A stretch of 64,000 nucleotides of DNA from Betaproteobacteria bacterium. GTDB lineage: Bacteria > Pseudomonadota > Gammaproteobacteria > Burkholderiales > WYBJ01. The notes below the pieces were generated by a model. It did no database searches. It saw only the letters and a list, made by a program, of their open reading frames with translations, and was not told where the DNA came from. Shown here in pieces: positions 7,009-64,000 of the stretch (position 1 is the stretch's first letter; each line of letters begins with the position of its first letter). The position numbers and the translations under genes were made by a program. The stretch is from positions 1 to 64,000 of the forward strand of contig WHTS01000022.1 in NCBI GenBank assembly GCA_009377585.1, in the 5' to 3' direction.

Positions 7009-7012
7009 CAGC

Positions 7013-36462: not shown

Positions 36463-36888
36463 ATGTTTCGATCCGCCAAGCGCGCCGCCGTGCGCGGTTT
36501 CACCCTGCTCGAGCTGCTGGTGGTCATGGTGATCATCGGCCTCCTCGCAGGGTTCGTGGCGCCGAGGTATTTCGGCCAGATCGGCAAGTCGGAGGTGAAG
36601 GTCGCGCGCGCCCAGGTCGATGCCCTGGAAAAGGCTCTGGACCAGTATCGCCTGGATACCGGCCGCTATCCTTCCACCGAGCAGGGTCTGAGCGCGCTGG
36701 TCGAGCGCCCCGGAGACGAATCGAAATGGGCGGGTCCGTACCTGCGAAAGCGCGTGCCCCTCGATCCCTGGGGCAAGCCTTATGTCTACCGCTTCCCCGG
36801 CGAGCGAAGTGAGTTCGATCTGGTCTCACTCGGGCGCGATGGGCAACCCGGCGGGTCGGGCGCGGACGAGGATATCGTCAACTGGTGA
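36463..36888 (+). CDS. gspG: Major pseudopilin GspG
   Basis: The 141-residue protein has a short basic leader and the prepilin-peptidase motif G-FTLLELLVVMVIIGLLAG, with the conserved Glu at +5. The globular part is typical: LDQYRLDTGRYPSTEQGL, GPYLRKRVPLDPWGKPY and DLVSLGRDGQPGG. It polymerises into the type II secretion pseudopilus. It is the first gene of a run of tightly packed genes; the GspF start is 10 bases past its stop. A CTGTCAT half-site lies about 60 bases upstream (36400-36406). Confidence 0.95.
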   Translation: MFRSAKRAAVRGFTLLELLVVMVIIGLLAGFVAPRYFGQIGKSEVKVARAQVDALEKALDQYRLDTGRYPSTEQGLSALVERPGDESKWAGPYLRKRVPLDPWGKPYVYRFPGERSEFDLVSLGRDGQPGGSGADEDIVNW

Positions 36889-36898
36889 GCAGCCAATC

Positions 36899-38071
36899 GT
36901 GCACTTCGAGGTGAGAATGCTTGCGCCCGAGGGCGTCGTGGCGCTCCAGCTGGAAGCGATCGACCGCGATGCGGCCGCACGGCAGGCGAACGCGCGCGGG
37001 CTGCCGGTACTGTCCGTCATGCCGCGCCGGTCGCTTGCTCTTCGCGCCGAGCGATTCTCGCTCGTTCTGTTCACGCAGGAGCTGCTCGCGCTGCTGCGCG
37101 CCGGCCTGGGCCTGATCGGGTCGATCCGCGCGCTGGCCGAGCGGCGCGCGGGCATCGGAAGCGTCACCTTGCGCGGCGTTCTGGAGCAATTGAGCGACGG
37201 CAAGCCGCTGTCCATGGCGCTGTCGCGGTTTCCGCGGGCGTTTCCGCTCGTTTACGTCGAATCGGTCCGCGCGTCCGAGAGAACCGGCGCGCTGGCCGAG
37301 GCGTTGTCGCGGTTCGTGCAATACCAGGGACAGGTCGAGCAGATCCGGCAGAAGCTCGTCTCGGCGCTGATCTACCCCGCGTTGCTGCTGATTGTCGGAG
37401 CGGCGGTGTCGCTCTTTCTGATCGGCTACGTCGTGCCGCGCTTTGGCGGTGTATACCTGGAGCTCAACAAGGAGCTGCCGTGGGCATCGCGCCTGTTGTT
37501 CGAGCTCGGCGGCTTCATCGATCGGCATGTGCTGGAGGGAGCGTTGCTCTGCGCGGCGCTGGTTGCCGGAATCACATGGGCCCTTCGCGCCGGTGAGTTG
37601 CAGACCCGCCTGGCTCGCCTGCTGCCCCGCGTTCCGTTCGTGGGCGAGCGGCTCGTGATCTACCGGTTGACGCGCCTGTACCGGACCGTCGCCATGCTGC
37701 TGCACGGTGGTGTCCCGCTGGTGTCTGCGCTGCGCATGGCCTCCGGCCTGCTGGATTCGGCGTCGCGCCAGCAGTTGGAGCAAGCCACCGCCGAGGTCCG
37801 TGACGGCGGCTCGCTGTCGGCCGCACTGGAACGGCACGCGCTCACCACGCCGATCGCCGGTCGCATGCTCCAGGTCGGCGAGCGCAGCGGCGACCTGGCG
37901 GGGCTCATGGAACAGGCGGCGGCCTTTCACGAAGAAGAGCTCGGGCGCTGGGTCGAGCGCGCCACCCGCATGCTCGAGCCCTGTCTGATGCTCTTGATTG
38001 GCACACTGATCGGCGGGATCGTGGTGCTGATGTACATGCCCATCTTCGATCTCGCGGGAACGCTGCAATGA
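36899..38071 (+). CDS. gspF: Type II secretion inner-membrane platform protein GspF
   Basis: GTG 36899 was chosen because the product then opens VHFEVRMLAPEG, the family's usual start. The 390-residue protein has two GspF repeats, each with an FTQELLALLRAGLGL or RTVAMLLHGGVPLVSAL block, and three membrane segments (SALIYPALLLIVGAAVSLFL, ALLCAALVAGITWAL, LMLLIGTLIGGIVVLMY). It forms the inner-membrane platform contacted by the GspE ATPase. Its stop overlaps the GspE start by 4 bases (ATGA). Confidence 0.94.
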   Translation: MHFEVRMLAPEGVVALQLEAIDRDAAARQANARGLPVLSVMPRRSLALRAERFSLVLFTQELLALLRAGLGLIGSIRALAERRAGIGSVTLRGVLEQLSDGKPLSMALSRFPRAFPLVYVESVRASERTGALAEALSRFVQYQGQVEQIRQKLVSALIYPALLLIVGAAVSLFLIGYVVPRFGGVYLELNKELPWASRLLFELGGFIDRHVLEGALLCAALVAGITWALRAGELQTRLARLLPRVPFVGERLVIYRLTRLYRTVAMLLHGGVPLVSALRMASGLLDSASRQQLEQATAEVRDGGSLSAALERHALTTPIAGRMLQVGERSGDLAGLMEQAAAFHEEELGRWVERATRMLEPCLMLLIGTLIGGIVVLMYMPIFDLAGTLQ

Positions 38072-39765
38072 ACGATCGCCTCGATTCCCGCGCAGCGAAC
38101 GAGACGGCACTGGCCCCCGACGTACTCGAGCGCGCGCGACTGGTGGCGGCAGAGCGCGGTGGCCGGGTGATGGAGGCACTGGAGGAGTGCACGGCGCTTC
38201 CGCCCGACCGGTTCGTCGCCGAGTTGGCGCGCCAGTTCGGGATGCGCGCACTCACCATGCCGGCCATGCAGGCCATGACGCCGAGATTCGATCTGATTCC
38301 GTTCCCCGAATCGCTGCGGCGCGAATGCGTGCTTCTCGACGGGCAGGACCAGGGTCTTACCCTTGCGACCAGCGATCCGTTCGATCTTGCGCTGCGCGCC
38401 TGGGCCGAGGAGCGGGTGCCCGCAGCGTTCGCCATCGCCATCGCGCACCGCGACGATCTCGACGCGTTCCTGCACCGCTACGAGGACGGCATGCGGGCGA
38501 TGGATTCGCTCGCCGGCCTGACCGAAACGGCCGGGCCGGCGAAGTCGGTCGAGGATCTTTCGATCCGCAGCATCAGCGACGACGCGAACCCGGTGGTGAA
38601 ACTGGTCAACTCGACGCTCTACGACGCGCTCAAGCTGGGCGCGAGCGATGTCCACCTGGAAACGAGCGCCGAGGCGCTCAACATCAAGTACCGGCTCGAC
38701 GGGGTGTTGTCGATCGCCGGCCGATCGCCCGGCGGCACGTTCGCCGAGCAGGTCATCTCGCGCGTCAAGGTGATGGCCGAGCTCGATATCGCCGAGCGGC
38801 GCGTGCCGCAGGACGGGCGCTTCAAGATCGCGGCGCGCGGACGCGAGATCGACGTGCGCGTCTCGATCATGCCGAGCATTCACGGCGAGGATGCGGTGCT
38901 GCGCATCCTCGACAAGCAGGCCCTGGCCGACCAGGTGCTCGGCTTGCGGCTGGAGGCGCTCGGATTCGCCCCGGCGGTGCTCGCCGCCATCCGCGAGCTT
39001 GCCGTCCAGCCCTACGGCATGCTGCTCGTGACCGGACCGACCGGCAGCGGCAAGACGACCACGCTCTATGCGGCCCTGAGCGAGATCAACCGCGGCATCG
39101 ACAAGATCGTCACGATCGAGGACCCGGTCGAATACCAGCTTCCCGGGGTATTGCAGATCCCGGTGAACGAGAAGAAGGGGCTCACGTTCGCACGCGGCCT
39201 GCGCTCGATCCTGCGCCACGACCCCGACAAGATCATGGTGGGCGAGATCCGCGATCCCGAAACAGCGCAGATCGCGGTCCAGGCGGCGCTGACTGGGCAC
39301 CTGGTGTTCACCACCGTGCACGCGAACAACGTGTTCGACGTGATCGGCCGCTTCACGCACATGGCGGTCGAGCCGCAGAGCTTCATGTCGGCGTTGAACG
39401 GCATCGTCGCGCAACGCCTGATGCGCGTGAACTGTCCGCATTGCTCGATACCGGTCGAGTCGAGCTGCGCCGAGCTGCAACGCTACGGTCTGGAGCCCGC
39501 ACGGCAGGCGAGCCTCGCTCTGCGGGCAGGCAGCGGCTGCGGCCAGTGCCGCGGCAGCGGGTATCGGGGCCGGCGCGCCATCGCCGAAGTGCTGCTCGTC
39601 GACGACGAGCTGCGCGAGCTGATCGCGGCGCGCGAGCCGCCGCGCCGGATCAAGTCCGTGGCGCAGGCGCGGGGCTTTCGCTCGCTGCGCACGGCGGCAC
39701 TCGATCTGGTGATCAACGGCGAGAGCACCTTCGAGGAGCTGAATCGTGTCACCCTGGCCGCGTGA
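38068..39765 (+). CDS. gspE: Type II secretion/pilus assembly ATPase GspE
   Basis: The 565-residue ATPase has an N-terminal domain and an N2 domain (KLGASDVHLETSAEAL, RVPQDGRFKI). Walker A is GPTGSGKTTT near residue 322, followed by the Asp box (VTIEDPVEYQLPG), Walker B (KIMVGEIRDPETA) and the His box (GHLVFTTVHANN). Two CxxC pairs (NCPHCS and GCGQCRGSGYRGR) form the zinc site typical of GspE/PilB. It powers pseudopilus assembly. The next gene begins 20 bases before its stop. Confidence 0.95.
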   Translation: MNDRLDSRAANETALAPDVLERARLVAAERGGRVMEALEECTALPPDRFVAELARQFGMRALTMPAMQAMTPRFDLIPFPESLRRECVLLDGQDQGLTLATSDPFDLALRAWAEERVPAAFAIAIAHRDDLDAFLHRYEDGMRAMDSLAGLTETAGPAKSVEDLSIRSISDDANPVVKLVNSTLYDALKLGASDVHLETSAEALNIKYRLDGVLSIAGRSPGGTFAEQVISRVKVMAELDIAERRVPQDGRFKIAARGREIDVRVSIMPSIHGEDAVLRILDKQALADQVLGLRLEALGFAPAVLAAIRELAVQPYGMLLVTGPTGSGKTTTLYAALSEINRGIDKIVTIEDPVEYQLPGVLQIPVNEKKGLTFARGLRSILRHDPDKIMVGEIRDPETAQIAVQAALTGHLVFTTVHANNVFDVIGRFTHMAVEPQSFMSALNGIVAQRLMRVNCPHCSIPVESSCAELQRYGLEPARQASLALRAGSGCGQCRGSGYRGRRAIAEVLLVDDELRELIAAREPPRRIKSVAQARGFRSLRTAALDLVINGESTFEELNRVTLAA

Positions 39766-40543
39766 CCGGATTCTCGCATGGCTCTGTCCGCGCGCCGTCG
39801 TCATCGCGCGGCAGCGCTTCGGCCTGGGCAATGCCCGGATCGTGGCGCACAGGGAACGGGCGCTGCCGCGGGCGCAGCCCGCCCGCGACGGATTGGCGTG
39901 CGTGGCCGCGCTGGAGGCCGAGCTCGAGGAAAGCGGCTGGAGCGGCGCCGCGCTTTCGGTGTGCATCTCGGATCATTTCGTGCGCTACGCCGTGCTCGCA
40001 TGGCGGCCGGGTCTGCGCGCGCGCGCCGATTGGGAGGCCTACGCGGCCCACGAGCTCGAAGCGCGCTACCAATGGAAGCGTCACAACGAGATTCGCATCG
40101 CACACGCGCCCAACGGCGCCGCTCGGCTGGCCGCGGCGGTCGACGAGGAGCTGCCGCAACTGTTGCTCGATATGGCGGAAAGAAGGCGCCTGCGCATGGC
40201 CGCCCTGGAGCCGAATGCATGCCGCGTCGCGAACCGCTATCGGCGCAAGCTCGGACGTCGCGGGCACCTGCTCGTCGCCGAGCCCGGGCGGGTGACCTGG
40301 CTCAGTGTGGCGGACGATCGCTGGAGCGGCGCCATCAGTGTGCGCAACGACGATTGCAATGGCCTTGGCGCGTTGGTCATGCACGCCCGCCTGCACGGCG
40401 GCTACGATCCCGAGGTCGACACGGTATGGGCTTGGGGGACGCTGGATGACGCTGCGATCGCACTTGCCCGGCTTGCGGGCGTCTCGCGGCTGGAGCCCCC
40501 GAGCGCCACGCCGCCCTCGTGCAGCGCGCTGGGCCTCATCTGA
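39746..40543 (+). CDS. PilM/GspL-like assembly protein
   Basis: A 265-residue protein starting at GTG 39746 within the end of gspE. Similarity is weak, but position (after GspE, before PilN-like) and features fit the cytoplasmic actin-like half of GspL or a divergent PilM. It has SVCISDHFVRYAVLAW, EAYAAHELEARYQW and LLVAEPGRVTWLSVADDRW, matching the ATPase-fold layout of MshI-type proteins. No membrane segment. Its stop overlaps the next start by one base (TGATG). Confidence 0.65.
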   Translation: MSPWPRDRILAWLCPRAVVIARQRFGLGNARIVAHRERALPRAQPARDGLACVAALEAELEESGWSGAALSVCISDHFVRYAVLAWRPGLRARADWEAYAAHELEARYQWKRHNEIRIAHAPNGAARLAAAVDEELPQLLLDMAERRRLRMAALEPNACRVANRYRRKLGRRGHLLVAEPGRVTWLSVADDRWSGAISVRNDDCNGLGALVMHARLHGGYDPEVDTVWAWGTLDDAAIALARLAGVSRLEPPSATPPSCSALGLI

Positions 40544-41085
40544 TGCCGTCCGCATTGCAGATCGACTTCGCGGGTGCACCGCGCGGCGGGAGCCAGGGCG
40601 GCGCGATCCTTCTCGTCGCCGGCCTCGCGGTCGCGGCGGGTATCCTCGGCAGCTACCTGCACCTGCGGCAGGAAACCGATGCCGTTCAGGCGCGCATCGA
40701 AGCCCTGTCCCGGAGCATGCGCGCAAACGGCGCTGAAACCCTGGAGCGCGATCCCCGCAAACTGCGCGTGCTGCGGGCGCGCATCGAAGCGTCGAACCGC
40801 ATTCTGAGCGCCCTCGACCAGCCGTGGATCCGTCTGTTCGACGAGCTCGAGTCGGCCACCGTCGACGGCGTCACCTTGCTCGCGATGGAGCCGGACGGCT
40901 CGAAGGCGCTCGTGCGCCTGGTCGGCGAAGCGCGTGACCGGGACACGCTGTCGCGCTATCTCGAGCGCCTGGGAAGGCTCGCCTCCTTGCGCGAGGTGCG
41001 GCTGAACCAGCACGAGCTGCGCGACGCCCAGGGCGGCAGCAGCTTGCGCTTCGTCGTTTCCGCGCGCTGGGTCCGCCCGGCATGA
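40543..41085 (+). CDS. PilN-like (GspL C-terminal type) membrane protein
   Basis: The 180-residue protein has one membrane helix near residues 20-40 (GGAILLVAGLAVAAGILGSY), a coiled coil (LRQETDAVQARIEALSRSM) and a small ferredoxin-like domain ending VVSARW. This is the architecture of PilN or the periplasmic half of GspL. It probably pairs with the PilO-like protein next to it in the inner membrane. It overlaps the genes on both sides. Confidence 0.75.
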   Translation: MPSALQIDFAGAPRGGSQGGAILLVAGLAVAAGILGSYLHLRQETDAVQARIEALSRSMRANGAETLERDPRKLRVLRARIEASNRILSALDQPWIRLFDELESATVDGVTLLAMEPDGSKALVRLVGEARDRDTLSRYLERLGRLASLREVRLNQHELRDAQGGSSLRFVVSARWVRPA

Positions 41086-41630
41086 ACGGGCTGGTAGAGG
41101 CGCTCAGCCGGTTCGTCGACGACATCGGCAAGCCCGGCGTCATCGGCCTCGGTTTGCTCGTGTTCGCGTCGAGCCTGGCCGCCGGCATGGTGCTCCCCGC
41201 ATACGAGGCGCTGCAGGCGGCGCGCGCGCAGCACGAGCGCATCGCGCAGCGAATGGACGCGACGTCGAGCCGTCGCGACGGGCGCAAGGCCGACATCCAA
41301 ACGGAGCTCGCGACATTCATGCGCCATTTCCCGCCGGCCGACGAGGCGCGGCAGGATATCCTGCGGTTGCAGGCCTTCGCCGCCAATCACGGCATCCAGC
41401 TGCGCAGCGGCGAATACCGCCTGGCGCCGGAGCGCGGCATCGAGCTGGTCCGCCACCAGATCGCCTTTCCGGTCACCGGCCCGTATCAAAGCATCCGCGC
41501 GTTCATTGCCGAAGCGCTCGCAGAGCTGCCTTCGGCCGCGCTCGAGTCGGTGTCGTTCAAGCGCGATTCGGTCGTCGCGCGCGAGATCGAAGCCCGTCTT
41601 CAGTTCGCGCTCTACACCGCGGGCACATGA
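41082..41630 (+). CDS. PilO/GspM-like membrane protein
   Basis: A 182-residue protein with one membrane helix (PGVIGLGLLVFASSLAAGMV) followed by a coiled coil (LQAARAQHERIAQRM) and a periplasmic domain with FMRHFPPADEARQDILRLQ and HQIAFPVTGPYQSIRAFIAE. This is the PilO/GspM pattern. It overlaps the previous gene by 4 bases (ATGA) and the next by 4. Confidence 0.75.
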   Translation: MNGLVEALSRFVDDIGKPGVIGLGLLVFASSLAAGMVLPAYEALQAARAQHERIAQRMDATSSRRDGRKADIQTELATFMRHFPPADEARQDILRLQAFAANHGIQLRSGEYRLAPERGIELVRHQIAFPVTGPYQSIRAFIAEALAELPSAALESVSFKRDSVVAREIEARLQFALYTAGT

Positions 41631-42175
41631 AGATCGCACCCAGGACCCGTCGCTGGGCGCTGTTCGCTGCCCTGCCGCTGGCGGCAGCGGCTGCGCTGCG
41701 CGCCAACAACGACGATGAAGCCGCCTCGCGGGAACGCAGTGCGGATGCGCGTCCACGCGACGCGGTGAGCGCCGCAACCGCCGCCACGCGCGAACGCGAG
41801 GCCCTGCCCCACGTCGATATGGAGCGGCTTCAGGCGCTCCCGCGGCGTCACGTATCGGAGCAGCCGTTCGTGGATCCATTCTTCGCCGGGCCGGCAGCCG
41901 CGCCGGACAGCGCGCAGACGGCAGAGACAGCAGCGCCCCCGCCGCCGCCTCCGCCGCCCGAGGCTCCTGCGCTTCCCTTCCGGTTCATCGGACGCCAGGA
42001 CGCCGACGGCGTGCCGCTCATCTTTCTGGAACAACAGGAACAGATCCATATCGTGCGTATCGGCGAGACCGTCGCGGACGCCTGGCGCCTGGACAAGGCC
42101 GACGACCAGGCGCTCGTCTTCACCTACGTCCCGCTCGGACAGCAGCGAAAGCTCGCGACGGGGAGCTCGGGTTGA
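41627..42175 (+). CDS. GspC/PilP-like periplasmic connector
   Basis: The 182-residue protein has an N-terminal anchor (RRWALFAALPLAAAAAL), a long linker ending in a run of nine prolines (APPPPPPPPP), and a small beta domain: PFRFIGRQDADGVPLIFLE and IVRIGETVADAWRLDKAD. This matches the homology-region domain of GspC and PilP, which links the inner-membrane complex to the secretin. The secretin start overlaps its stop (TTGA). Confidence 0.72.
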   Translation: MKIAPRTRRWALFAALPLAAAAALRANNDDEAASRERSADARPRDAVSAATAATREREALPHVDMERLQALPRRHVSEQPFVDPFFAGPAAAPDSAQTAETAAPPPPPPPPEAPALPFRFIGRQDADGVPLIFLEQQEQIHIVRIGETVADAWRLDKADDQALVFTYVPLGQQRKLATGSSG

Positions 42176-44397
42176 GGCGCCTCGGCGCCTTGCTGGTTGC
42201 GGCTGCGCTGGCTGGCTGCGCGACGACATCGGAGCTCGATCAGGCGCGGCAGCTGACAGACGCGGGCCGTCTCGAAGAGGCGCTTGCCCGTTTCGAAAAG
42301 CTCACCGTCGAGCATCCCGGAAATGCGCAGTATCGCGCCGCGTTCGCGAGCCAGCGCGAGCTGGTGGTCAATCGCTGGCTTGCCGAGGCCGAAACGCTGC
42401 GTGCGAGCGGCGCCTACACGCAGGCGCAGGCGAAGTATCAGCGCGTGCTCGATCTGCTTCCGGGCAATGCGCGCGCGACGGCCGGCCTTTCTCAGATCGA
42501 GGCCGAACGCAACGCCGACGCCCTGGTGGAACGCGCGCAGGCGGAACTGAAGCGCGGCGATACGGCTGCTGCCGAGGCTCGGCTGCGCGAGGCGCTGGCG
42601 CAGGCGCCTCAGCACCGGGCGGCCCGGACGCTGGCGCATCGATTGGAGGAGCGCCGCGCCATCGAGGCCGGGCCGAAGCAACCCCGTCTGGGCGAGCAGT
42701 TCTCGAAGACCATAAGCCTGCAGTTTCGCGACGCGAACCTGCGCCAGGTGTTCGAAATCATCTCGCGGGCGCACGGCATCAATTTCGTGTTCGACAAGGA
42801 CGTGCGCCCGGATATGCGCGTCACGATATTCGTTCGGGACACCGCGATCGAGGACATCGTCAAGCTCGTGCTGGCGACCAATCAGCTCGAGCGCAAGGTT
42901 CTCAACGAGAACTCGATACTGATCTATCCCAATACGCCGGCCAAGGCGCGGGAGTACCAGGATCTGGTGACGCGCAGCTTCTATCTCGGCAATGCGGACG
43001 CCAAGCAGACGCTCAACCTGGTGCGCGCGCTGGTGAAGACACGCGACGTGTACATCGACGAGAAGCTGAACCTGCTGGTGATGCGCGACACGCCCGCGGC
43101 CGTGCACTACGCGGAGAAGCTCATCCTCAACCAGGATCTGGCCGAGCCGGAGGTCATGCTCGAAGTGGAAGTGCTCGAGGTGAGCCGGACGCGGCTGCAG
43201 GAGCTCGGCGTGCGCTTCCCGGACCGGATCAATTTCGGCCCGCTCGGGATCGACGGCGGGGCGCCGCCCTCGGAGTTCGAGCTCTCCAGCTCGGCGCTGC
43301 GCGCGACGGTGGCGAATCCGGCGCTCATCCTCAACATGAAGCTGCAGGACGGAAGCACCAACGTGCTCGCGAATCCGCGCATCCGCGTGCGCAATCGGGA
43401 GAAGGCGCGCATCCATATCGGCGAGAAAGTGCCGGTGGTCACGACCACCAGCACGGCGAATGTCGGCGTGTCGGCGTCGGTGAACTACCTCGAGGTCGGA
43501 TTGAAGCTCGACGTCGAGCCGAACGTCTACCTGGACGACGAGATCGCGATCAAGGTCGAGCTCGAGGTGAGCAACATCATCGAGACGCTGGATCTTTTCA
43601 ACACCCGGGCATACCGACTGGGCTCGCGCAACGCCACCACCACGCTGCGCCTGCGCGACGGCGAGACGCAGGTCCTGGCGGGCCTGATCCAGGACGAAGA
43701 CCGGCGCACCGCCAACAAGGTTCCGGTTCTCGGCGACATTCCGATTCTCGGGCGACTGTTCTCGAGCAACAACGATACCACGACCAAGAACGAGATCGTG
43801 CTGCTCATCACGCCACACGTCATCCGCAACATCCTGCGCCCCGAATCGCGCTTCGCCGAGATCGCCTCGGGAACGGACGCGGCCATCGGCGCCGAGCCGC
43901 TGAAGCTCCGGACCTCGGCCCCCTCGCAAATGAGCATCTCGTCCGGGCAGTCCGGCGCCGGGCCTGCGCGCCCCGCGCCGCAGGCGGGTGGAAAGACTTC
44001 GCCCGTGCGAACGGCGGCTCCGGTCGATCTGGTGCTGTCGGCGCCGGCGCAAGCGGCGATCGGATCCGAGTTCAGCGTGCAGGTGGGATTGTCGAGCGCG
44101 ACCGGCGTCGCGCGCCGGACGAGCTTCGAGCTCGCCTACGAACCGGCTCTGCTGCAACCCGTGGGCGACCCGCAGGTCGCCAAGCCGGGGCAGACCGGGG
44201 CCGGCCGAATTCCCGTGACGATCGACCTGGTGGCCGATTCCGGGATTCCGACCCGTGAAGTGCGCTTCCGGGTGATCGCCAAGGAGCCAGGCGAGGCGCG
44301 ACTTTCGGTGGAGGGCGCTGCGGTGCTCGGCAACGACGACCAGCCCATCCCGGGCAACGTCCCCCCGGCGCACACGCTCCGGATCGTGCCGAAATGA
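42172..44397 (+). CDS. gspD: Secretin GspD-type lipoprotein with TPR-like start and cohesin-like end
   Basis: Start TTG 42172 overlaps the previous stop. The 741-residue protein has a lipobox (LVAAALAGCAT). Next comes a helical repeat region (residues about 25-170) with LTDAGRLEEALARFEKL and AQAKYQRVLDLLPGNARATA, resembling tetratricopeptide repeats. N-domains follow (ISLQFRDANLRQVFEIISR), then the secretin channel (LANPRIRVRNREKARIHIGE, TTLRLRDGETQVLAGLIQDE, VPVLGDIPILGRLFSS). After the channel, about 130 residues (DLVLSAPAQAAIGSEFSVQV, FELAYEPALLQPVGD) resemble a cohesin fold. The TPR and cohesin parts set it apart from classic GspD. Confidence 0.92.
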   Translation: MRRLGALLVAAALAGCATTSELDQARQLTDAGRLEEALARFEKLTVEHPGNAQYRAAFASQRELVVNRWLAEAETLRASGAYTQAQAKYQRVLDLLPGNARATAGLSQIEAERNADALVERAQAELKRGDTAAAEARLREALAQAPQHRAARTLAHRLEERRAIEAGPKQPRLGEQFSKTISLQFRDANLRQVFEIISRAHGINFVFDKDVRPDMRVTIFVRDTAIEDIVKLVLATNQLERKVLNENSILIYPNTPAKAREYQDLVTRSFYLGNADAKQTLNLVRALVKTRDVYIDEKLNLLVMRDTPAAVHYAEKLILNQDLAEPEVMLEVEVLEVSRTRLQELGVRFPDRINFGPLGIDGGAPPSEFELSSSALRATVANPALILNMKLQDGSTNVLANPRIRVRNREKARIHIGEKVPVVTTTSTANVGVSASVNYLEVGLKLDVEPNVYLDDEIAIKVELEVSNIIETLDLFNTRAYRLGSRNATTTLRLRDGETQVLAGLIQDEDRRTANKVPVLGDIPILGRLFSSNNDTTTKNEIVLLITPHVIRNILRPESRFAEIASGTDAAIGAEPLKLRTSAPSQMSISSGQSGAGPARPAPQAGGKTSPVRTAAPVDLVLSAPAQAAIGSEFSVQVGLSSATGVARRTSFELAYEPALLQPVGDPQVAKPGQTGAGRIPVTIDLVADSGIPTREVRFRVIAKEPGEARLSVEGAAVLGNDDQPIPGNVPPAHTLRIVPK

Positions 44398-44870: not shown

Positions 44871-44873
44871 CCG

Positions 44874-57300: not shown

Positions 57301-60300
57301 GGGGCACCCGGCTCGCCCGCGGCCGTGCAGCTCGAGGGCTTCGCGCAGGTGAGGCTCGACGCGCGCGACGCCGTGATCGCCGAGGGCGCAGGCAGTCTAC
57401 ACGTGCACGGCGATCTGTCGGTCCAGACCGGCCGCCTGGAGGCCGCCACGGCGGCGCGCTATGCGCTGGGCGCTTCCGGGCAGCTCGATGTCCTGCCGGG
57501 CCGCGCGGGAATCGCCGCGACCGAGGCCGATTCGCTCGGCGGCAGCCTCGCGCTCACGGGGCGCTCCGCGTCGATCGGCAGCGCCATCTCGGCGCCGGCC
57601 GGCCGCATTGCGATCGCAGCCGTCGGCCCGACCGCAGACGACGGCGTGACGCTGCATGCCGGCGCACGCGTCGCCGCGCCCGGCGCGAGCGTCGTCTTCG
57701 ACGGCGTGCCCGCGCATGCCGCGGCCGGCGTGATCGACATCCGTTCGGCCGCCGGCAGCCTCGTGCTCGAAAGCGGCTCGGTCGTCGACGTGTCGAGCGC
57801 ATCCGGCGCGGACGCCGGCGAGATCCGGCTGTCGGCCCCGCAAGGCAGCGCGAGCCTGCAGGGGATGCTCAAGGGCGGCGCGATGACACAGGCCGGCCTG
57901 CTCGCGCCCGCGCAGGGCAGCTTCGTGCTCGACGCCGGCACGCTGGCGGATTTCTCCGCGCTCAATTCAGCGCTCGACGCGCGCCTGGATGCCGCCGGGG
58001 CGTTCGTCTCCGGCGGATTCGGCGCGAAGCGCGATGTGCGCGTGCGCTCCGGATCGATCGTCGTCGCGGCCGGCGATCGCGTGGTCGCCCACGAAGTGGC
58101 GCTCGCTGCCGATGACGGAGACATAACGGTCGATGGAACGATCGACGCCTCCGGGGCGAAGGGCGGGCGCATCATGCTGGCGGCGAACGAAGCTGGCGCC
58201 GGCACGGGTTCCATCCGGATCGCGGGGCGGCTCGAGGCGTCGGCCGAGGGCGCGGGTACGCAGGGCCGCGGCGGCGAGGTCGCGCTGTCGATCGCGAGCA
58301 GCGCCAACGGAGCCGCGACCGCGGCAACCATCGCGATCGAGCACGGCGCGGTCGTCGACGTGTCCGGCGCGGGCGGGCGGATCTCGTTGCGGGCGCCGCG
58401 ACTCGGCTCCGGGGCCGGCACCGGCGTCGCGGTCGAGCGTCTGGACGGCGAGCTGCGCGGCGCGGGCGAGATCGTGCTGGAGGCGTACAAGGTCTACAAC
58501 GCGACCACGGTGAGCGGCGACGGCGCGACCACCGACGGCGGCGTGTTCAACGTGGCGACCACCGGTCCGTTCGCCAACACGGTGGGATTTCGCGAGGCCG
58601 GAGATTTCATTGCCGGGGCCAAGGACACGATCCTGGCGGCGCTCGGCCGCGCCGGCGATCCGTCGTTCCACCTGCGGCCGGGCATCGAGATCCGCAGTCC
58701 CGGTTCGCTGACGGTCGCCGTGAACGAGACGGCGCCGCAGCAGCATCTGCGCGGCTGGAACCTGTCGGCGTGGCGCTTCGACGGCGAGCCGGGCGTGCTG
58801 ACCTTGCGCGCCCAAGGCGATCTCATCCTCGACAGCTCGCTCGGCGACGGATTCACGGCGACGGCCAACCAGGCGATGGCGAACTGGACGGCGCTGCGCA
58901 CGGACGATTCATGGTCGTACCGGCTGGTCGCCGGCGCCGCCGCGGCCGCCGCGAATCCGCTCGCGACGATCGCCGGCAGCGGCGACATCGTGCTGGCCGC
59001 CGGCAAGCTGGTGCGCACCGGCAGCGGCTGGATCGAGCTGGCCGCCGGGCGCGATCTGACGCTCTCCGATCCCTCATCGGTGATCTATACGGCCGGAAAG
59101 CCGGGCGCTGCGATCCCGGGCTATACCCCGCCGACGTTCCGCGACGAAAGCAACCGGGCGTTGCGCGCCATCAACCCGGAAGGCGGCGGAGACATTCGCA
59201 TCACGGTCGGGCGCGACATCTCGGCCATCGCCGGCAGTCAGCTCATCAGCGACTGGCTCATGCAGCGCGCGGCGCGGCGCACGACTTCCGGCGCGATTCT
59301 CGTACCGAACGCGCAAACCACCTGGTGGCCCCGTTACACGAGCTTCCAGCAGGGCGTCGGAACGCTTGGGGGCGGCGATGTCAGCGTCGTTGCGGGCCGG
59401 CATATCGAGAATCTGAGCGTGGTCGCGCCGACCAACGGCGTCATGGGCGGCAGCACGAGCGCGGCGCCTGACCCAGCGAACCTCGTGGTCCGGGGTGGGG
59501 GCGATGTGCTCGTGCGCGCGGGCGAGAATCTGAAGGGCGGGGCGTACCTCGTCATGAAAGGCGCGGGGCGTATCGATGCGGGCGGCGACATCGGCAGCGG
59601 TGTGCGCAACACCGCCGAAGGCGCGTACGCGGTCGGTCCGATACTCGCTGCGGGCGATGCGCGCTTCGACGTGCGCGCGGGCGGCGATCTCACGCTGGGC
59701 ACCGTGCTCGATCCGACGCTGCTGCCGCAGGCCCACAACATCGGCGCCTCGCTCGTCGCGGGCAGCCAGAACGCGTTTTCGAGCTACACGGCCACGACAG
59801 GTGTGGCGTTGACGGCGGTCAGCGGCGATCTTCGGCTGTTGAACGATACCGCCACGCTGGACCAGTCGGCGCCCCAGATCTACGGCCCGGGTGTCATCGG
59901 CGACGGTTTCAGCGCCACGCTCTACCCCGGAACGCTGCGGGCCGCGGCGTTGCGCGGCGACGTCGAGGTGTCGCGGCCGTTCACGCTGTTCCCCGCAGCC
60001 GCAGGCAATCTGGATCTCCTCGCCGGGGGCGACGTCGTCGTGGGCGGGCACATCCGGATGTCGGATCTCGATCCCCGCGTTCTGCCGAGCGTGGCTGCAC
60101 CCTCGCTCGGCTTCTTCGGCACGATCTTCGACGGCCAGGGTCGCTATGACGCCGGACCCACGGTGCACTCGAACCCGCCGCTGCACGCGGCCGACACGAA
60201 TCCCGTCCGGGTCGTCGCCGCAACCGGCGACCTGCTTTTCCGCAGCGGCGCGCAGCTGATCGTCGCCGAGGCCGCCCGCCTCGTCGCCGGGCGCGACATC

Positions 60301-61659
60301 CGCGATCCGGACTTCGGCGGACAGAACCTGCGCGGCACGGATGCCACCGTGCTGATGGCGGGCCGCGACATCGTCTCCACCAGCCCCATCGGGACGAGCG
60401 GCGTGCCCGGCATCAACGATCGCACCATTCAGATCGGTGGTCCCGGGAGAATCGAGGTCATTGCCGGCCGCGACATCGATCTCGGCACCTCCTCGGGCAT
60501 CGTCACCCGCGGCCCGCTCGACAATCCATTCCTGCCCGAGTCCGGCGCGAGCATCCTCGTGCTCGCCGGCGCGCCGAGCGCACCCGACTATGCGGCGTTC
60601 GTCGCCCGCTACATCGATCCGCCCGATCCGGCCGCCCGCCGTTTCGGCACGGAGCTGGCGGCCTACATCGGCACGCTGACAGGATCGGCGCCGCCGACCG
60701 AGGCCGAAGCTCTTACCGTCTTTCGCGCGCTGCCGGCTTCGCAGCAGGCTGCATTCGTGCGCCGGGTCTTCTACGCCGAGCTGAAAGAGACCGGACGCGA
60801 CGTCACGGCAAGCGGTGCTCGCGGCGTCGAGGCCTACCGGCGCGGCTACGAGGCGATCGAGACCTTGTTCCCCGTCCGGGGCGGCGACGCCGAGGCGCGC
60901 GGCGACATCAATCTCTTCTTCAGCCAGGTGAAGACCGAGCAGGGGGGCGAGATCGAGTTGATGGCACCCCGCGGGCTCATCAACGCGGGCCTCGCAAACC
61001 AGGGGCGCTTCAGCAAGCCGGCGTCGCAGCTCGGCATCGTCACCGTCGACAGCGGCTCCATTCTCGCATTCACGCGCGACGACTTCCTCGTCAACCAGTC
61101 GCGCGTCTTCACGGTCGCCGGCGGCAACATCCTGATCTGGTCCTCGGAGGGCAATATCGACGCCGGCCGCGGCGCGAAGACGACGTCGGCCACGCCGCCG
61201 CCGCAGTTCCGCATCGACGCCGACGGCGTGATCTCGCTCGACATCACCCAGTCGATCGCCGGCAGCGGCATCGGCGTATTGCTCGGCCGGCCGGGCGTCA
61301 CGCCGGGCGATGTCGATCTGATCGCGCCGAAGGGCGAAGTCAACGCGGGAGACGCCGGGATACGATCCGCGGGCAACCTGAACATCGCCGCCGTGCGCGT
61401 GGTCGGCGCCGACAACATCCAGGTGGGCGGGCGTTCCACCGGCGTGCCCACGGCGGATACGTCCGCGCTCGGCGCCTCACTGGCGGCGAGCAGCGCGACC
61501 GGCAGCGATGCCACGCGCTCGGGCGAGCAGGCGACACGCGGGCTCGCCGAAGCCGCACAGGCGGCGCAGGCGCTCAAGGAGAGCTTCCGGCCCTCGTTCC
61601 TGACGGTCGAAGTGCTCGGCGTGGGTGAGGACGAACCTGCGGAGCGCAAGAAGCCATGA
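51379..61659 (+). CDS. Giant TpsA exoprotein (filamentous haemagglutinin type, 3426 residues)
   Basis: ATG 51379 overlaps the tpsB stop. An extended N-terminus of about 24 residues precedes the signal peptide (MSAAVLAACAALGA). The TPS secretion domain follows, with LINQNGIVFANGAQVDVGGL at residues 131-150. More than 2500 residues of irregular beta-helix repeats come next (for example SGGDLTLRAP, AGRDLTL). The C-terminal part has ASGARGVEAYRRGYEAIETL and EGGEIELMAPRG-like text, the DUF3739 domain of this branch. It should be exported by the TpsB next door and stay on, or leave, the surface. No toxin domain is seen at the C-terminus. Confidence 0.93.
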   Translation: MRAERDRMTIDAARPAEPVWKRLRMSAAVLAACAALGARSSDAAQPAGLVPQPGKAWSNAAIDAARTNAARLTIQQSQPKAILHWNRFNVAPGQAVVFEQQAATWAALNRIHDADPSRIQGSISARGQVYLINQNGIVFANGAQVDVGGLVASTLDITDDLFEQGLLSNLLPAQNPAFGPFANGAPSGTVVVENGAEIRTAREGRVILLGSDVSNNGIISTPDGQAILAAGSKAYLAASNDPALRGLLIEVDNGGRVENLPLSKIVAERGNVTLAGLAVNQSGRVSATTSVNQNGSIRLLARDTVVDKDLGGGVHVPLGSRGGELRFGKASVTEVRPELSDPQTIKDDQAFNRSSIEGIGRTVRLEADAVVAAPAGNVTLTAQAGLEFQPPGAAANAQARIYLEQGSRIDVAGTADVVLPMERNVVEVELRGNELRDAPLQRDGPLRGKTVQVDVRKGTGLADASGSVAQIGRTVEERTTTGGDVSLQSEGDIVVRQGASIDASGGSVRYLDGFVRTSKLLATSGRVVDIGDARPDEIYRGVVDTVTIDHVKWGVSETFSARYGFERGYVEGMSAGTIALLGHAVVLDGELVARTRAGERQRAAGTLPVGGGLILGDASAAAASVRSFKLPDVHFVEAATALPSGFRFATGEAPGSPLDPLPEPNRAAVQVPVAMLRNGGFGRVTVLSNGRIQLGEGVRLDLAPGSQRAPDGSVRQSALALTGREIEVLGSINIPSGAVSLTTVQPLGSFLPAAAYAIRLGEEGTICAAGGWINDLPTAGGSAGSGPALIAGGSVSLVSAADVVLAAGSVIDVSGGAWLDASGALQAGAGGSIRLKSGRVNLGDFDPQQSTLVLGGELRGHGLQRGGALTLDTSRVHIGPDAPEGTLSLAAAFFQRGGFSAYAVNGQDGLTVAAETTIGPHAENRVLDPAYVTAPSATDIARFSSLALLPEALRTPTALTLTAAGTVFGDLLIDRSAELRVEAASQITLSAGNQLTMLGSLAAPAGRITLSTADPVDPTRGGPRDYGAAQSIWLGAKSRIDARGVARVVTGLDGLRRGEVLDGGNVTIDARTGYVVQQPGSHVDVSAVAAELDIVPRAYATPVATIVAGSAGAIDIRAQEGVLLGGSLRAARAAPWSEGGTLSVTLHPAVAGNPSYPTLPRRVIVSNAAIAAFPALAPGEVIDPNARTRPGEAQLNHRALLDAATLNGGGFDSITLRSPDSIELEGDVTLAARRSISLAALSVAAAGESRAAFDAAYVSLSNTTGFAAPAPVAGEGSLVVSAGLIDFEGNVTLSGFERAQFVADGDIRFKGSYFPGGASVLSGQLRTAGALAFDAAQLYPTTMSRFVVEAVGEGARIDVTGRDAGASALSAGGDLTLRAPAIRQGGVIRAPAGSVTLDAAQTLTLAPGSLTSVAASGLVMPFGRTELSGRAYVYALDESTNVLIEAVPQKRVELRGAEVRIESGALVDLSGGGDLRAYEFVPGPGGSRDLLDAANAPGTFAILPAAAAAFAPYDHQIQAAGAASALAVGDAVALAGADGVAAGVYILLPTRYALLPGAYLVSAVNGTRDFPAGKATRRSDGAQIVAGYRTWTARDGSQVRDGRSTGFLVQPGATARSRSEYLETALGSAFAADSGRQTLADAGAAAIRATEVLDLQGSFRANHAPGSAGATLDIAAPKLAVATADAAGIRDDFVRLDPLALSRLDVASMVLGATRSADDDRTRLSVVSSDIVVANDAGNALRAPEIILAANRNVTIRDGSLIIGEGVYASPARTLVVGGDGVSGDGALVRVASGPEVGIVRENAARTEGTLKVETGARLQAQGAVALDATRDHVMRGALELAAGAALALGAGRISLGDTGAVVSGLALSREQVDALGALSSLTLRSYSTLDTYGALSLGSPALGHLSVDSGGLNNYRGADGSAQVRLSAAQVTFTNTRGSPHAGAPALGDGALPVFGNGNLDVHADRIVLGEGNGAPGSPAAVQLEGFAQVRLDARDAVIAEGAGSLHVHGDLSVQTGRLEAATAARYALGASGQLDVLPGRAGIAATEADSLGGSLALTGRSASIGSAISAPAGRIAIAAVGPTADDGVTLHAGARVAAPGASVVFDGVPAHAAAGVIDIRSAAGSLVLESGSVVDVSSASGADAGEIRLSAPQGSASLQGMLKGGAMTQAGLLAPAQGSFVLDAGTLADFSALNSALDARLDAAGAFVSGGFGAKRDVRVRSGSIVVAAGDRVVAHEVALAADDGDITVDGTIDASGAKGGRIMLAANEAGAGTGSIRIAGRLEASAEGAGTQGRGGEVALSIASSANGAATAATIAIEHGAVVDVSGAGGRISLRAPRLGSGAGTGVAVERLDGELRGAGEIVLEAYKVYNATTVSGDGATTDGGVFNVATTGPFANTVGFREAGDFIAGAKDTILAALGRAGDPSFHLRPGIEIRSPGSLTVAVNETAPQQHLRGWNLSAWRFDGEPGVLTLRAQGDLILDSSLGDGFTATANQAMANWTALRTDDSWSYRLVAGAAAAAANPLATIAGSGDIVLAAGKLVRTGSGWIELAAGRDLTLSDPSSVIYTAGKPGAAIPGYTPPTFRDESNRALRAINPEGGGDIRITVGRDISAIAGSQLISDWLMQRAARRTTSGAILVPNAQTTWWPRYTSFQQGVGTLGGGDVSVVAGRHIENLSVVAPTNGVMGGSTSAAPDPANLVVRGGGDVLVRAGENLKGGAYLVMKGAGRIDAGGDIGSGVRNTAEGAYAVGPILAAGDARFDVRAGGDLTLGTVLDPTLLPQAHNIGASLVAGSQNAFSSYTATTGVALTAVSGDLRLLNDTATLDQSAPQIYGPGVIGDGFSATLYPGTLRAAALRGDVEVSRPFTLFPAAAGNLDLLAGGDVVVGGHIRMSDLDPRVLPSVAAPSLGFFGTIFDGQGRYDAGPTVHSNPPLHAADTNPVRVVAATGDLLFRSGAQLIVAEAARLVAGRDIRDPDFGGQNLRGTDATVLMAGRDIVSTSPIGTSGVPGINDRTIQIGGPGRIEVIAGRDIDLGTSSGIVTRGPLDNPFLPESGASILVLAGAPSAPDYAAFVARYIDPPDPAARRFGTELAAYIGTLTGSAPPTEAEALTVFRALPASQQAAFVRRVFYAELKETGRDVTASGARGVEAYRRGYEAIETLFPVRGGDAEARGDINLFFSQVKTEQGGEIELMAPRGLINAGLANQGRFSKPASQLGIVTVDSGSILAFTRDDFLVNQSRVFTVAGGNILIWSSEGNIDAGRGAKTTSATPPPQFRIDADGVISLDITQSIAGSGIGVLLGRPGVTPGDVDLIAPKGEVNAGDAGIRSAGNLNIAAVRVVGADNIQVGGRSTGVPTADTSALGASLAASSATGSDATRSGEQATRGLAEAAQAAQALKESFRPSFLTVEVLGVGEDEPAERKKP

Positions 61660-61676
61660 CGCTCGGCGCCGCAAGG

Positions 61677-61698
61677 CCGTGTCACGGATATGACACGG
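61677..61698. promoter_or_regulatory. Perfect inverted repeat between tpsA and the DUF2341-ExbB gene
   Basis: CCGTGTCA (61677-61684) and TGACACGG (61691-61698) form an 8-bp dyad with a 6-base spacer, 18 bases after the tpsA stop and 44 before the next start. It could be an operator for the energy genes or a terminator hairpin for tpsA. Confidence 0.5.
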
Positions 61699-61741
61699 TG
61701 GTTACGCAAAATGCCGCTCATCCCCTGCGCAATTCGAGCCC

Positions 61742-63457
61742 ATGAAATACATCGTCCTGATGCTCGTTGCATTGCTAGCCGTCTCGCCGGCCAGCGCTTG
61801 GGCCTGGTGGAACGCGGAGTGGGCGCAACGCCGGCCGATCGTGCTCGATACCTCCGCAGGCGGGGCCGACGTCAAGGAGACGCTGTCGAACGTGGTCGTT
61901 CCCGTTCGCCTCCACACCGGGAACTTCGATTTCCTGGCCGCGAAGGAGGACGGATCGGATCTGCGCTTCGTTTCCGCCGACGACAAGCTGGTGCTGAAGC
62001 ACCACGTCGAAAGCTTCGACTCGCTCAACGAGCTGGCGATCGTGTGGGTGCAGGTTCCGCGGCTGGCGGGCGCGTCCAACGCCGAGTCGATCTGGCTCTA
62101 CTACGGCAATTTCAAAGCCCCGAGCGTCGCGGATGCCAAGGGCACGTACGACCCGAGCCAGTTGGCCGTGCTGCACTTCGCGGAGGGCGTGGGGCTGCTG
62201 CAGGACGCGGCCGCCTACGGACAGGCGGCGAAGGGAAGCGCGAGCCCTGCGGCGATCGGTCTGATCGGCGGCGCTGCGGCCCTGGACGGCTCCGCGCCGC
62301 TCGTCCTCCCGGCCTGGCCCGCACTCAAGCTCGGTTCGCCGGGCGGGTTCACTTTCAGCGCGTGGGTCAAGCCGGAGAACGCCGAGGCCGACGCGACGCT
62401 GTTCGCCATGCGCGATGCCGAGCGATCGTTCACGATCGGTCTCGAGCGCGGGCGGCTGTTTGCGCGCTTCGTGGCCAAGGACAAGTTCGAAACGCGTCCG
62501 CTCGAGAACGCGTTGCCGCCCGCGGCGTGGAGCCACATCGCAGTGACGTTGTCCGATCGTCTCGTGGTCTACGTCAATGGCGAGCAACGCGCGGCGGTGG
62601 CGGCCAATGCGCCCCATTTCAGCGCGGACGGCGTAATCGGCGAGAACTTCGCCGGCGAGCTGGACGAAGTCCAGATTGCCGCTCAGGCACGTTCCGCCGA
62701 CTGGGTCAAGCTCTCGCACGCTGCACAGGCGGCGGACGGCCGGCTGATCCGCTATGGCCAGCCCGAGGCGGGGGAAAGCGGCAGCGCGTCGTACCTCGGC
62801 ATTCTGCTCGGCGCCGTCACGCTCGACGGCTGGGTCGTGATCGCGATCCTGGCGCTGATGATGCTGGTGAGCTTCGCCGTCATGATCGCAAAGGCGATCG
62901 CCGTGTTCCGCACCGCAAACGCGAATCTGCGCTTCCGGCAGAAGTTCGGCGCAGCGGAAGGCGAAGAGCTTGCGCGCGAGCACGGCTTCGACGGCTCGTC
63001 GCTGTTCCGCGTCTATCGGCTGGGCATCGAGGAGCTGCGGCATCGCTTCGAGCGCTACGACCGGGACGGACTGGCGCGCAGCCTCTCGCCGCAGGCACTC
63101 GGGGCAATCAAGGCGAGTATCGACGCCGGCCTGGTGCGGGAGAACGAGCGGCTCAACAGCCAGATGGTGCTGCTCACGATCGCCATCAGCGGAGGCCCGT
63201 TCCTCGGGCTGCTCGGCACCGTGGTCGGCGTGATGATCACCTTCGCGGCGATCGCGGCGGCAGGCGACGTCAACGTCAACGCCATCGCGCCGGGGATCGC
63301 GGCCGCGCTGGTGGCCACCGTGGCCGGCTTGGGCGTCGCGATCCCGGCCCTGTTCGGCTACAACTACCTCGCGAGCCGCATCCGCGGCATCAGCAACGAC
63401 ACGGCGGTATTCGCCGACGAGCTGATCACGCGCCTTGCCGAGAAGTACGCACCCTGA
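61742..63457 (+). CDS. DUF2341-LamG-ExbB/TolQ fusion protein
   Basis: The 571-residue protein has a signal peptide (IVLMLVALLAVSPASAWA), then a DUF2341 domain (WWNAEWAQRRPIVLDT, SIWLYYGNFKAPS). A LamG/concanavalin-like domain follows (GFTFSAWVKPENAEADATLF, AAWSHIAVTLSDRLVVYVNG, ELDEVQIAAQARS). After a membrane segment near residue 360 (WVVIAILALMMLVSFAVMI) comes a MotA/TolQ/ExbB proton-channel domain: GGPFLGLLGTVVGVMITFAA and PGIAAALVATVAGLGVAIPA. The periplasmic part could bind sugar or protein while the channel uses proton flow. ExbD follows 2 bases later. Confidence 0.93.
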   Translation: MKYIVLMLVALLAVSPASAWAWWNAEWAQRRPIVLDTSAGGADVKETLSNVVVPVRLHTGNFDFLAAKEDGSDLRFVSADDKLVLKHHVESFDSLNELAIVWVQVPRLAGASNAESIWLYYGNFKAPSVADAKGTYDPSQLAVLHFAEGVGLLQDAAAYGQAAKGSASPAAIGLIGGAAALDGSAPLVLPAWPALKLGSPGGFTFSAWVKPENAEADATLFAMRDAERSFTIGLERGRLFARFVAKDKFETRPLENALPPAAWSHIAVTLSDRLVVYVNGEQRAAVAANAPHFSADGVIGENFAGELDEVQIAAQARSADWVKLSHAAQAADGRLIRYGQPEAGESGSASYLGILLGAVTLDGWVVIAILALMMLVSFAVMIAKAIAVFRTANANLRFRQKFGAAEGEELAREHGFDGSSLFRVYRLGIEELRHRFERYDRDGLARSLSPQALGAIKASIDAGLVRENERLNSQMVLLTIAISGGPFLGLLGTVVGVMITFAAIAAAGDVNVNAIAPGIAAALVATVAGLGVAIPALFGYNYLASRIRGISNDTAVFADELITRLAEKYAP

Positions 63458-63459
63458 CG

Positions 63460-63864
63460 ATGCAGGTCAACAGCGACAACAAGCCCTACGACGACATCAA
63501 CGTCACGCCGATGCTCGACCTGGCGTACGTGCTGCTCGTGATCTTCATCATCATGACCACGGCCTCGGTGCAGGGAATCAAGGTGAACCTGCCCAAGGCG
63601 AGCGCCACGCCGAGCCTCGCCAAGCCGACGACCAAGGCGGTGACGATCACGCAGGACGGCCGCCTGTTCCTCGACGCCTATCCGGTCACTATGGACGAGC
63701 TGGAATCGCGCCTGCGCGCGCACAAGGCGGCCAGCGCGGACTTCCCGGTCGTCATCAAGGGCGATGCCAAGATCCAGTACGAGCGCGTGATCGAAGTGCT
63801 CGACCTGATGGGCCGTCTGGACATCACGCAGATCGGCCTCGTGACTCAGCGGCTCGTGAAATGA
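63460..63864 (+). CDS. exbD: ExbD/TolR-family energy transducer
   Basis: The 134-residue protein has one N-terminal membrane helix with the key Asp (INVTPMLDLAYVLLVIFIIM), then KVNLPKASATPS and a periplasmic domain (VTITQDGRLFLDAYPV, PVVIKGDAKIQYERVIEVLD). With ExbB it turns proton flow into motion of a TonB-like partner. Its stop overlaps the start of the next gene by 4 bases (ATGA). Confidence 0.95.
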   Translation: MQVNSDNKPYDDINVTPMLDLAYVLLVIFIIMTTASVQGIKVNLPKASATPSLAKPTTKAVTITQDGRLFLDAYPVTMDELESRLRAHKAASADFPVVIKGDAKIQYERVIEVLDLMGRLDITQIGLVTQRLVK

Positions 63865-64000
63865 CGGATGCCTTGCTCGCAAAGCGCGCCCGCGCGCTCG
63901 CGCTGATCACACTGCTGATCGTGGCCGCGGCCGCGCTCGTGGCCGCGGTCATCCACGGCTTCCTTCAGCAGGCCGCCAAACCGAGGAAATCATCGGTGCA
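63861..64000 (+). CDS. Probable TonB-like energy transducer, 3'-truncated by the window edge
   Basis: ATG 63861 overlaps the ExbD stop. Only 46 codons are visible: a short basic start (MTDALLAKRARA), one membrane helix (LITLLIVAAAALVAAVI) and a basic region (QQAAKPRKSS). The order ExbB, ExbD, then a single-helix protein with a Lys/Pro-leaning region fits TonB. The C-terminal TonB domain is outside the window, so the call rests on context. Confidence 0.65.
   Translation, partial: MTDALLAKRARALALITLLIVAAAALVAAVIHGFLQQAAKPRKSSV

Follow-up and report, generated by a model that had tools for sequence, protein, structure and literature searches.

We analysed a 64,000-base stretch of DNA (the window; bases 1-64000 of the 67,395-base contig WHTS01000022.1, from a 6.76 Mb genome of Betaproteobacteria bacterium) for a locus in which the genes of a two-partner secretion (TPS) pair stand beside those of an ExbB-ExbD-TonB motor. 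An earlier note on this DNA had placed type II secretion system (T2SS), binding-protein, TPS and ExbB/ExbD/TonB modules at 36463-64000. Family matches found all of these modules, with every gene of the run that starts at 36463 on the + strand.

The core of the locus comprises TpsB, a TpsA with DUF3739, an ExbB with DUF2341, ExbD, TonB, a Porin_5 protein and a coiled-coil protein. TpsB (49784-51379) carries POTRA_2 (PF08479) and a ShlB/FhaC-type barrel (PF03865), and TpsA (51379-61659; 3,426 amino acids) has an N-terminal TPS domain at residues 55-299 (PF05860, E=5.5e-31), DUF3739 at 3248-3358 and a low-complexity tail; these are the features of type Vb partners. In ExbB (61742-63457), a signal peptide is followed by DUF2341 (residues 70-136, E=1e-16), a LamG-like domain (Laminin_G_3, 195-322, E=2e-16) and then the channel domain (MotA_ExbB, 452-552, E=4e-26). 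The periplasmic DUF2341-LamG head proved conserved in an alignment of 22 heads. ExbD (63460-63864; PF02472) is followed by tonB (63861-64547 on the contig; TonB C-terminal family match), whose first 140 bases (63861-64000) fall inside the window. The remainder of tonB, the Porin_5 gene (64544-66115, E=9e-168) and the coiled-coil gene (66118-66828) lie beyond its end.

The motor genes thus show the parts expected of a TonB/ExbB/ExbD system: an ExbB channel domain, an ExbD with its membrane Asp and a TonB C-terminal domain. The Asp was present in the transmembrane pattern of 34 of 34 ExbD open reading frames (ORFs) from 29 neighbourhoods, a few of them paralogues, and a TonB_2 domain was found in 14 of 16 TonB proteins. 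Near the core of one relative (G265) are further small proteins whose C-terminal domain is TonB-like. ExbB and ExbD are encoded separately, each in its own frame; a 724-amino-acid ORF at 61690-63864, taken in the earlier note for an ExbB fusion, reads the wrong frame across ExbB, runs into ExbD and was discarded. From a PEP-CTERM gene (47164-48027; PF07589, E=1.2e-6) through Porin_5 the genes overlap or nearly touch, the widest gap, from the PstS-like gene to the ATG of TpsB, being 186 bases. On this spacing, a single long operon is likely.

Recurrence of the core genes

We first surveyed 41 genomes, the window's own and 40 relatives. Eight encode a full-length DUF2341-ExbB, and the other seven of these all have a PstS-like binding protein, TpsB, TpsA, ExbB, ExbD, TonB and the porin together, the binding-protein match in G027 being weak and partial. 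Chance does not account for such an arrangement. Among 300 genomes of the order, 32 matched the ExbB head, and all 32 neighbourhoods were fetched; the match in G096 was weak and that genome was not taken as a member. DUF2341-ExbB was present in 31 genomes, DUF3739 in 31 and both in 30 (Fisher 6e-39; this and the other values obtained, 2e-41, 1e-22 and 4e-10, ignore kinship, and the pairs span 17-18 of 139 genera). The unpaired cases were G264, whose ExbB lies on a contig of 4.5 kb, and G130, whose DUF3739 is close to the end of a contig. Strong Porin_5 matches occurred in 32 of the 300, namely every one of the 31 genomes with ExbB and, as a fragment, G082, while five weaker matches (E=1e-18 to 1e-23) belong to another subgroup. 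Gene order was less constant: three genomes (G131, G150, G265) have the Pseudomonas-type order TpsB-ExbB-ExbD-TonB-porin, with TpsA apart or before TpsB. In the class, DUF3739 was found in 23 of 370 genomes.

A single ExbB sequence used as query of a collection of named genomes returned no relative, and a profile of the 22 heads recovered at least 543 relatives among 594 candidate stretches. Eighty of the at least 543 were kept, of which 77 have ExbD, 75 TonB, 69 Porin_5, 66 the coiled-coil gene and 78 a DUF3739 tail or TpsB. Most of the porin-less contigs stop close by. By their record titles, many of them metagenome-assembled genomes, the named relatives include Sulfuriferula, Sulfuricella, Gallionellaceae, Thiobacillus, Rhizobacter, Methyloversatilis, Geobacter, Nitrospiraceae, Syntrophorhabdus and many Pseudomonas. 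An ExbB-ExbD-TonB-coiled-coil arrangement without porin was also seen, in L177 and in G156 (contigs C27 and C67), where DUF3739 and Porin_5 sit on another contig.

The core therefore reaches far beyond the window's lineage and is a real, conserved system. The strict pairing marks fibre, pore, motor and porin as the core, with the PstS-like protein as a frequent part and the T2SS as an independent neighbour, and the core genes very probably work together. The expectation that the modules recur together in other genomes was thus borne out by both the neighbourhoods and the 300-genome counts.

A conserved motif in the exoprotein tail

The DUF3739-bearing TpsA proteins end in a low-complexity stretch followed, at or near the C-terminus, by the short motif PSF[LI][ST]V[ED]V[LI]GFG[DE], which near the C-terminus of the window's TpsA takes the form FLTVEVLGVGE. 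In 48 tails, from 27 of the 31 DUF3739 genomes of the order and 21 of the class (G662 gives two; G387, whose contig ends inside the gene, was excluded, and the G150 tail was read apart), a strict pattern fitted 34 and a loose pattern 44, compared with 0.000 and 0.050 for shuffled tails. None of 20 TpsA proteins without DUF3739 from the same relatives fitted either pattern (the C-terminus was in view for 18, and two run off the fetched stretch). The loose pattern picks its own positions, and the flanking residues alone are independent of it; these were kept as P in 22, S in 26, F in 26 and D/E in 32 of the 44. Tails of the named relatives gave 31 of 55 for the strict and 46 of 55 for the loose pattern. 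A faint echo, FRPGRIDQ[AV]ILFGFQGD, was seen near the end of two giant TpsA proteins of the window's genus that lack DUF3739 (L238, own genome, C24; L239, G003, C49).

Because some tails continue past the motif, we do not take it to be recognised as a C-terminus, and a PEP-CTERM-like sorting signal was rejected because no transmembrane stretch accompanies it. Its shape (hydrophobic, T/S, V, acidic, V), together with the private TonB to which it is linked, makes a TonB box the most economical reading. We infer that the tail carries a TonB-box-like strand, a candidate TonB-binding segment.

Neighbouring modules and the Pseudomonas form

Upstream of TpsB lies a gene for a secreted PstS/PBP_like_2 protein (48077-49597), which matched PF12849 at E=2e-7 over part of the profile, TIGR02136 far under its cut-off and PstS-type chains at E=3e-5 to 0.5 over partial length. 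D-x-G-[VI]-S-D-V-E-P and R-R-x-x-G-S-G-T-Q are retained in four of four such proteins. A structure model was too poor to use (predicted local distance difference test, pLDDT, 36) and was discarded. Among the 300 order genomes, 23 encode the protein and 21 of these have DUF2341-ExbB, the other two being G130, which has DUF3739, and G096. Of the 10 ExbB genomes lacking a match, six (G027, G051, G054, G073, G156, G287) match at a looser cut-off. The PstS-like protein is thus a frequent part of the system and is nearly confined to genomes that have it. Together with the one-to-one presence of DUF3739, ExbB and Porin_5, this agrees with the earlier note's view that fibre, binding protein and proton-driven device belong together. 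Its "DING-type" label is unproven on so weak a match to the PstS/PBP family. For phosphate control, which the earlier note names in P. aeruginosa, no clear Pho-box signal emerged upstream of the locus genes: the mean best match was near the shuffled level upstream of seven gene groups, with a slight excess for GspG (10.0 against 9.0 of 14) and TpsB (9.5 against 8.9), and matches of at least 12 of 14 occurred in one of 12 GspG, one of 23 TpsB and two of 32 ExbB upstream stretches. With no Pho box standing out, we saw no sign of phosphate control here.

The T2SS operon is of the PilMNOP type (36463-45257). Pfam and NCBIfam matches identified GspG (36463-36888), GspF (36917-38071), GspE (38068-39765), PilN (40543-41085), PilO/GspM-like (41082-41630), a lipoprotein-like TPR secretin, GspD (42172-44397), and two pseudopilins (44394-44870 and 44874-45257), and the PilM/GspL-like (39746-40543) and GspC/PilP-like (41627-42175) genes, which have no family match, were named from their position and their conservation. 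The operon therefore has all of secretin, ATPase, GspF, major pseudopilin and assembly proteins; GspG exceeds its own NCBIfam cut-off, and GspE, GspF and GspD fall short of theirs. The operon is followed by a gene for the LuxR-type, XrtB/PEP-CTERM-associated regulator EpsA (45296-46075; TIGR03020, 182 bits against a cut-off of 170) and one for a pseudopilin-like protein without family match that is conserved in the locus (46093-46884), found in 20 and 16 of the 32 neighbourhoods, respectively.

The T2SS adjoins the core in 17 of the 32 neighbourhoods (13 whole, three partial, plus G253). It was not seen in the fetched stretches of G018, G016, G253 and G192, yet in G253 a secretin lies about 18 kb past ExbB. 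Adjacency was uninformative in nine of the 32 owing to a contig break or non-membership (G096, G116, G156, G162, G180, G220, G247, G264, G266). Among the seven close relatives it is adjacent in five, in G039 on the opposite side, and not adjacent in G016 and G018; its position on the opposite side of the core in both G039 and G226 argues for a kept linkage. Across the order, the secretin of PilMNOP-type T2SS is present in 105 of 300 genomes, 27 of the 31 with ExbB but also 78 of the 269 without it. This count excludes the T2SS as an obligate part and does not sustain the earlier note's inclusion of it in the linked working set: it is a frequent yet independent, separable neighbour of the core.

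Several other families recur near the core and were not counted as part of the system. A secreted-looking, ankyrin-repeat-like protein (family F13, named by eye) occurs in 15 of the 32 neighbourhoods, after the coiled-coil gene or amid the T2SS genes. Exopolysaccharide-type genes, also named by eye, occur in 12 (F18), 10 (F20) and nine (F24), the types being a CAAX-like membrane protein, an outer-membrane protein and a PpiC-like lipoprotein; their presence suggests a matrix context in common with EpsA. Just upstream of the T2SS, a hybrid sensor kinase is encoded at 30159-32534 and a phosphorus-related enzyme, glycerophosphodiester phosphodiesterase, at 32848-34218. The window also holds a large signalling cluster (1053-10614 and 16404-18125) with an Hpt hybrid histidine kinase, a response regulator with a guanylate/adenylate cyclase domain, and EAL and GGDEF proteins.

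The closest known counterpart is the PUMA3/Pdt locus of Pseudomonas aeruginosa, with vreAIR, hxc, lapA (whose product we take to be a DING protein), pdtA, pdtB, exbB2-exbD2-tonB4 and PA0696-PA0701. Both loci have TpsA, TpsB, ExbB, ExbD, TonB and a putative porin, and PUMA3/Pdt has a T2SS and the alkaline phosphatase LapA nearby, according to the available parts of two papers (PMC2729926, PMC7035377). Pseudomonas relatives have DUF2341-ExbB and Porin_5, P. aeruginosa itself being compared from the papers. By contrast, the locus here has TpsB-TpsA-ExbB in one run, a PilMNOP-type T2SS, an adjacent EpsA, a PEP-CTERM protein, a single tail motif rather than two and no clear Pho box. As far as the available text goes, Llamas 2009 had already noted, for P. 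aeruginosa and relatives, that homologues of TPS, ExbBD and PA0696 keep together close to PUMA3 (PMC2729926), so the word "undescribed" in the earlier note was too strong. The association has been known since 2009, and what is new is the conserved tail motif of DUF3739-TpsA and the energy-coupling proposal developed below. We found no report of TPS energy coupling or of a TpsA tail motif, and no paper on DUF3739, among the open-licence papers that our searches listed, and exbB2-exbD2-tonB4 is described, in the text available, as a still uncharacterised putative TonB system (PMC7035377).

The Pseudomonas form also contains VreA, in which, according to the available text, a signalling domain is linked to a TolA/TonB-like one whose partner is unknown (PMC2729926). 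The profile built from the TonB C-terminal domains of this system also matches VreA-like proteins, and Pfam STN plus TonB_2 were found in two of three, G542 having TonB_2 alone, just under cut-off. A match across both VreA domains was obtained in 13 of 13 Pseudomonas genomes and in none of 25 other genomes with the system (four short matches); a relative of the window, L149, gave a short, interrupted match to the C-terminal part. Two motif copies were present in 11 of 11 Pseudomonas tails read (e.g., VTVEVLGFG then SPVQVLGAG), and G131, G150 and G265 combine two copies with VreA-like genes near the core. In G542 a VreA-like gene accompanies a degenerate second copy. This link fits a second reader of the tail.

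Compared with classical TPS systems (FHA/FhaC, HMW1), the pair here shares the TPS domain and a POTRA_2, ShlB/FhaC-type TpsB and differs in having DUF3739, the conserved tail motif and a dedicated ExbB/ExbD/TonB. The solved FhaC structure has an N-terminal plug helix before POTRA1, a feature that does not define all TpsB. The window's TpsB has 38 residues between the start Met and POTRA1, signal peptide included, and in 57 sequences (23 from the order, 34 named) the lead after the apparent signal peptide was low-complexity and by eye mostly shorter than about 30 residues, with the POTRA1 pattern failing in at least three (G051, G237, L204). The idea that these proteins leave no room for an FhaC-like plug helix, which relied on our assumed length for the FhaC lead, was dropped because the lead is variable in length and in G018 comes to about 50 residues.

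Possible roles of the motor

Strict co-occurrence and the conserved tail motif lead us to propose, tentatively but as a plausible account, that a giant surface fibre is served here by a two-partner secretion system coupled to TonB, in which the motor acts on the fibre via its tail. TpsA would be exported through TpsB, with its C-terminal tail probably staying in the periplasm, as in some other TpsA; periplasmic tails are known for CdrA and the FHA precursor, as given in the available part of a TPS review (PMC5422565). There TonB would engage the tail and power, latch or release the fibre, with the ExbB-ExbD motor passing on the proton-motive force to hold, pull or release its last part. Two parts may hold the machine in place at the outer membrane, namely the DUF2341-LamG head of ExbB and the barrel of Porin_5 together with the helices at its N-terminus. 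The probable cargo of the T2SS in this lineage is the PstS-like protein, perhaps along with further matrix proteins that act with the fibre; control would lie with EpsA, whose associations are with PEP-CTERM and exopolysaccharide genes. TonB-type energy for export has a likeness in Oar/PopC of Myxococcus (PMC6434023, seen in part); Oar, however, is a TonB-dependent transporter and its cargo a protease, not a fibre. A bolder form of the proposal, possible but doubtful, is a proton-driven branch of type V secretion in which TonB-ExbB-ExbD pulls the fibre by its tail and, in Pseudomonas, the second motif copy is read by VreA, the VreI pathway thereby monitoring fibre transit. If true, this would name the partner of the TonB-like domain of VreA.

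Several observations weigh against coupling through the tail. The label "TonB-box-like" depends on the shape and context of the motif, judged against a TonB-box consensus that we assume. Four of the 48 tails fail the loose pattern (two keep TVEV, one SLEV, and G054 neither), as do nine of the 55 from named relatives: L154 reads N, L218 ends without the motif, four are from Nitrospirae or Thermodesulfovibrionia, and L156, L170 and L182 are altered. The motif is weak in relatives from Nitrospirae, Geobacter, Deltaproteobacteria and Syntrophorhabdus, with variants such as FLDIKVLNF, WLDVKVIDL and WVDVKVIGY in Geobacter, Nitrospirae and Syntrophorhabdus, and the VreA/two-motif link partly reflects shared ancestry. 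In published work, as far as the available texts go, TPS export in vitro proceeds without added energy (PMC5422565), the regulon does not require vreA under phosphate starvation (PMC4971064), and single tpsA, tpsB, tonB4 or PA0696 mutants of P. aeruginosa were as virulent as the wild type in zebrafish (PMC2729926).

The motor could instead serve nutrient capture, the fibre and the PstS-like protein catching a ligand and TonB opening or driving Porin_5 through a conserved N-terminal VRV[PQ]Y[VI]PE segment, as in haem capture by HxuA/HxuB/HxuC. In favour, Porin_5 occurs one-to-one with ExbB, 61 of 68 relatives have the segment towards the N-terminus (by a looser search pattern), phosphate porins come second among the structural likenesses of the barrel, and few genomes outside the system encode the PstS-like partner. 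HxuA/HxuB/HxuC is a precedent for a TPS pair linked to a TonB-dependent function, and the one mention of TonB in the available text of the TPS review concerns HxuC (PMC5422565). HxuC, however, belongs to the TonB-dependent transporters, a class not found among the genes here, and the locus carries motor genes of its own. For Porin_5, no plug or TonB-dependent receptor family matched at E up to 1. A model of the protein from a Sulfuriferula relative, aligned with 28 others (mean pLDDT 77, but under 50 for most of the first 57 residues), predicts N-terminal helices and then about 16 strands without a plug, in place of the plug and 22-strand barrel of TonB-dependent transporters, whose barrels are plug-closed according to the available text of PMC11658791. 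The best structural match was OmpM1 of Veillonella (Z 25.9, 304 residues, 3.4 A), then the phosphate porins OprP/OprO (Z 21); no plugged transporter was among the 50 VIA-align matches listed, and such a listing excludes nothing. Nutrient capture would also leave the TpsA tail and the one-to-one link with DUF3739 unexplained, and phosphate control was not seen. We consider it unlikely; Porin_5 itself may act as an anchor or as an uptake pore.

The same barrel enters into a second alternative, in which the tail is held statically by the ExbB head or by the Porin_5 helices and TonB/ExbBD tethers the envelope without doing work on the fibre. The best structural match of Porin_5 is an outer-membrane attachment porin. 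OmpM1 has a similar barrel fold and presumably a peptidoglycan-binding SLH domain, and the family search of the Porin_5 protein here gave no SLH domain. The ExbB head is the most unusual part of the system and is conserved, and DUF2341-type N-terminal domains on ExbB-type proteins are noted, in the part of the paper available, as domains of unknown function (PMC12505986). A bare tether, however, would not need the ExbD membrane Asp, and its retention in every ORF points to a working proton path, which makes a purely static latch improbable. Least probable of all is that motor and fibre function independently, linked by nothing more than common regulation or past joint transfer: they form one regulon in P. 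aeruginosa, by the accessible accounts (PMC2729926, PMC7035377), and the T2SS parts are separable, but the one-to-one presence extends over those 17-18 genera, the pairing survives changes of order (G131, G150, G265, Pseudomonas) and the motif is specific to DUF3739-TpsA.

How TPS is driven is an open question, to which the standard answer is folding energy alone. If its export is energised as we propose, this family would challenge the view that TPS needs no outside energy. A large family in which exoprotein, proton-driven motor and outer-membrane porin almost always occur together, and in which the exoprotein carries a specific tag, makes an energised variant directly testable. The coupling proposal also suggests a role for exbB2-exbD2-tonB4, DUF2341, DUF3739 and Porin_5, and offers a candidate partner for VreA.

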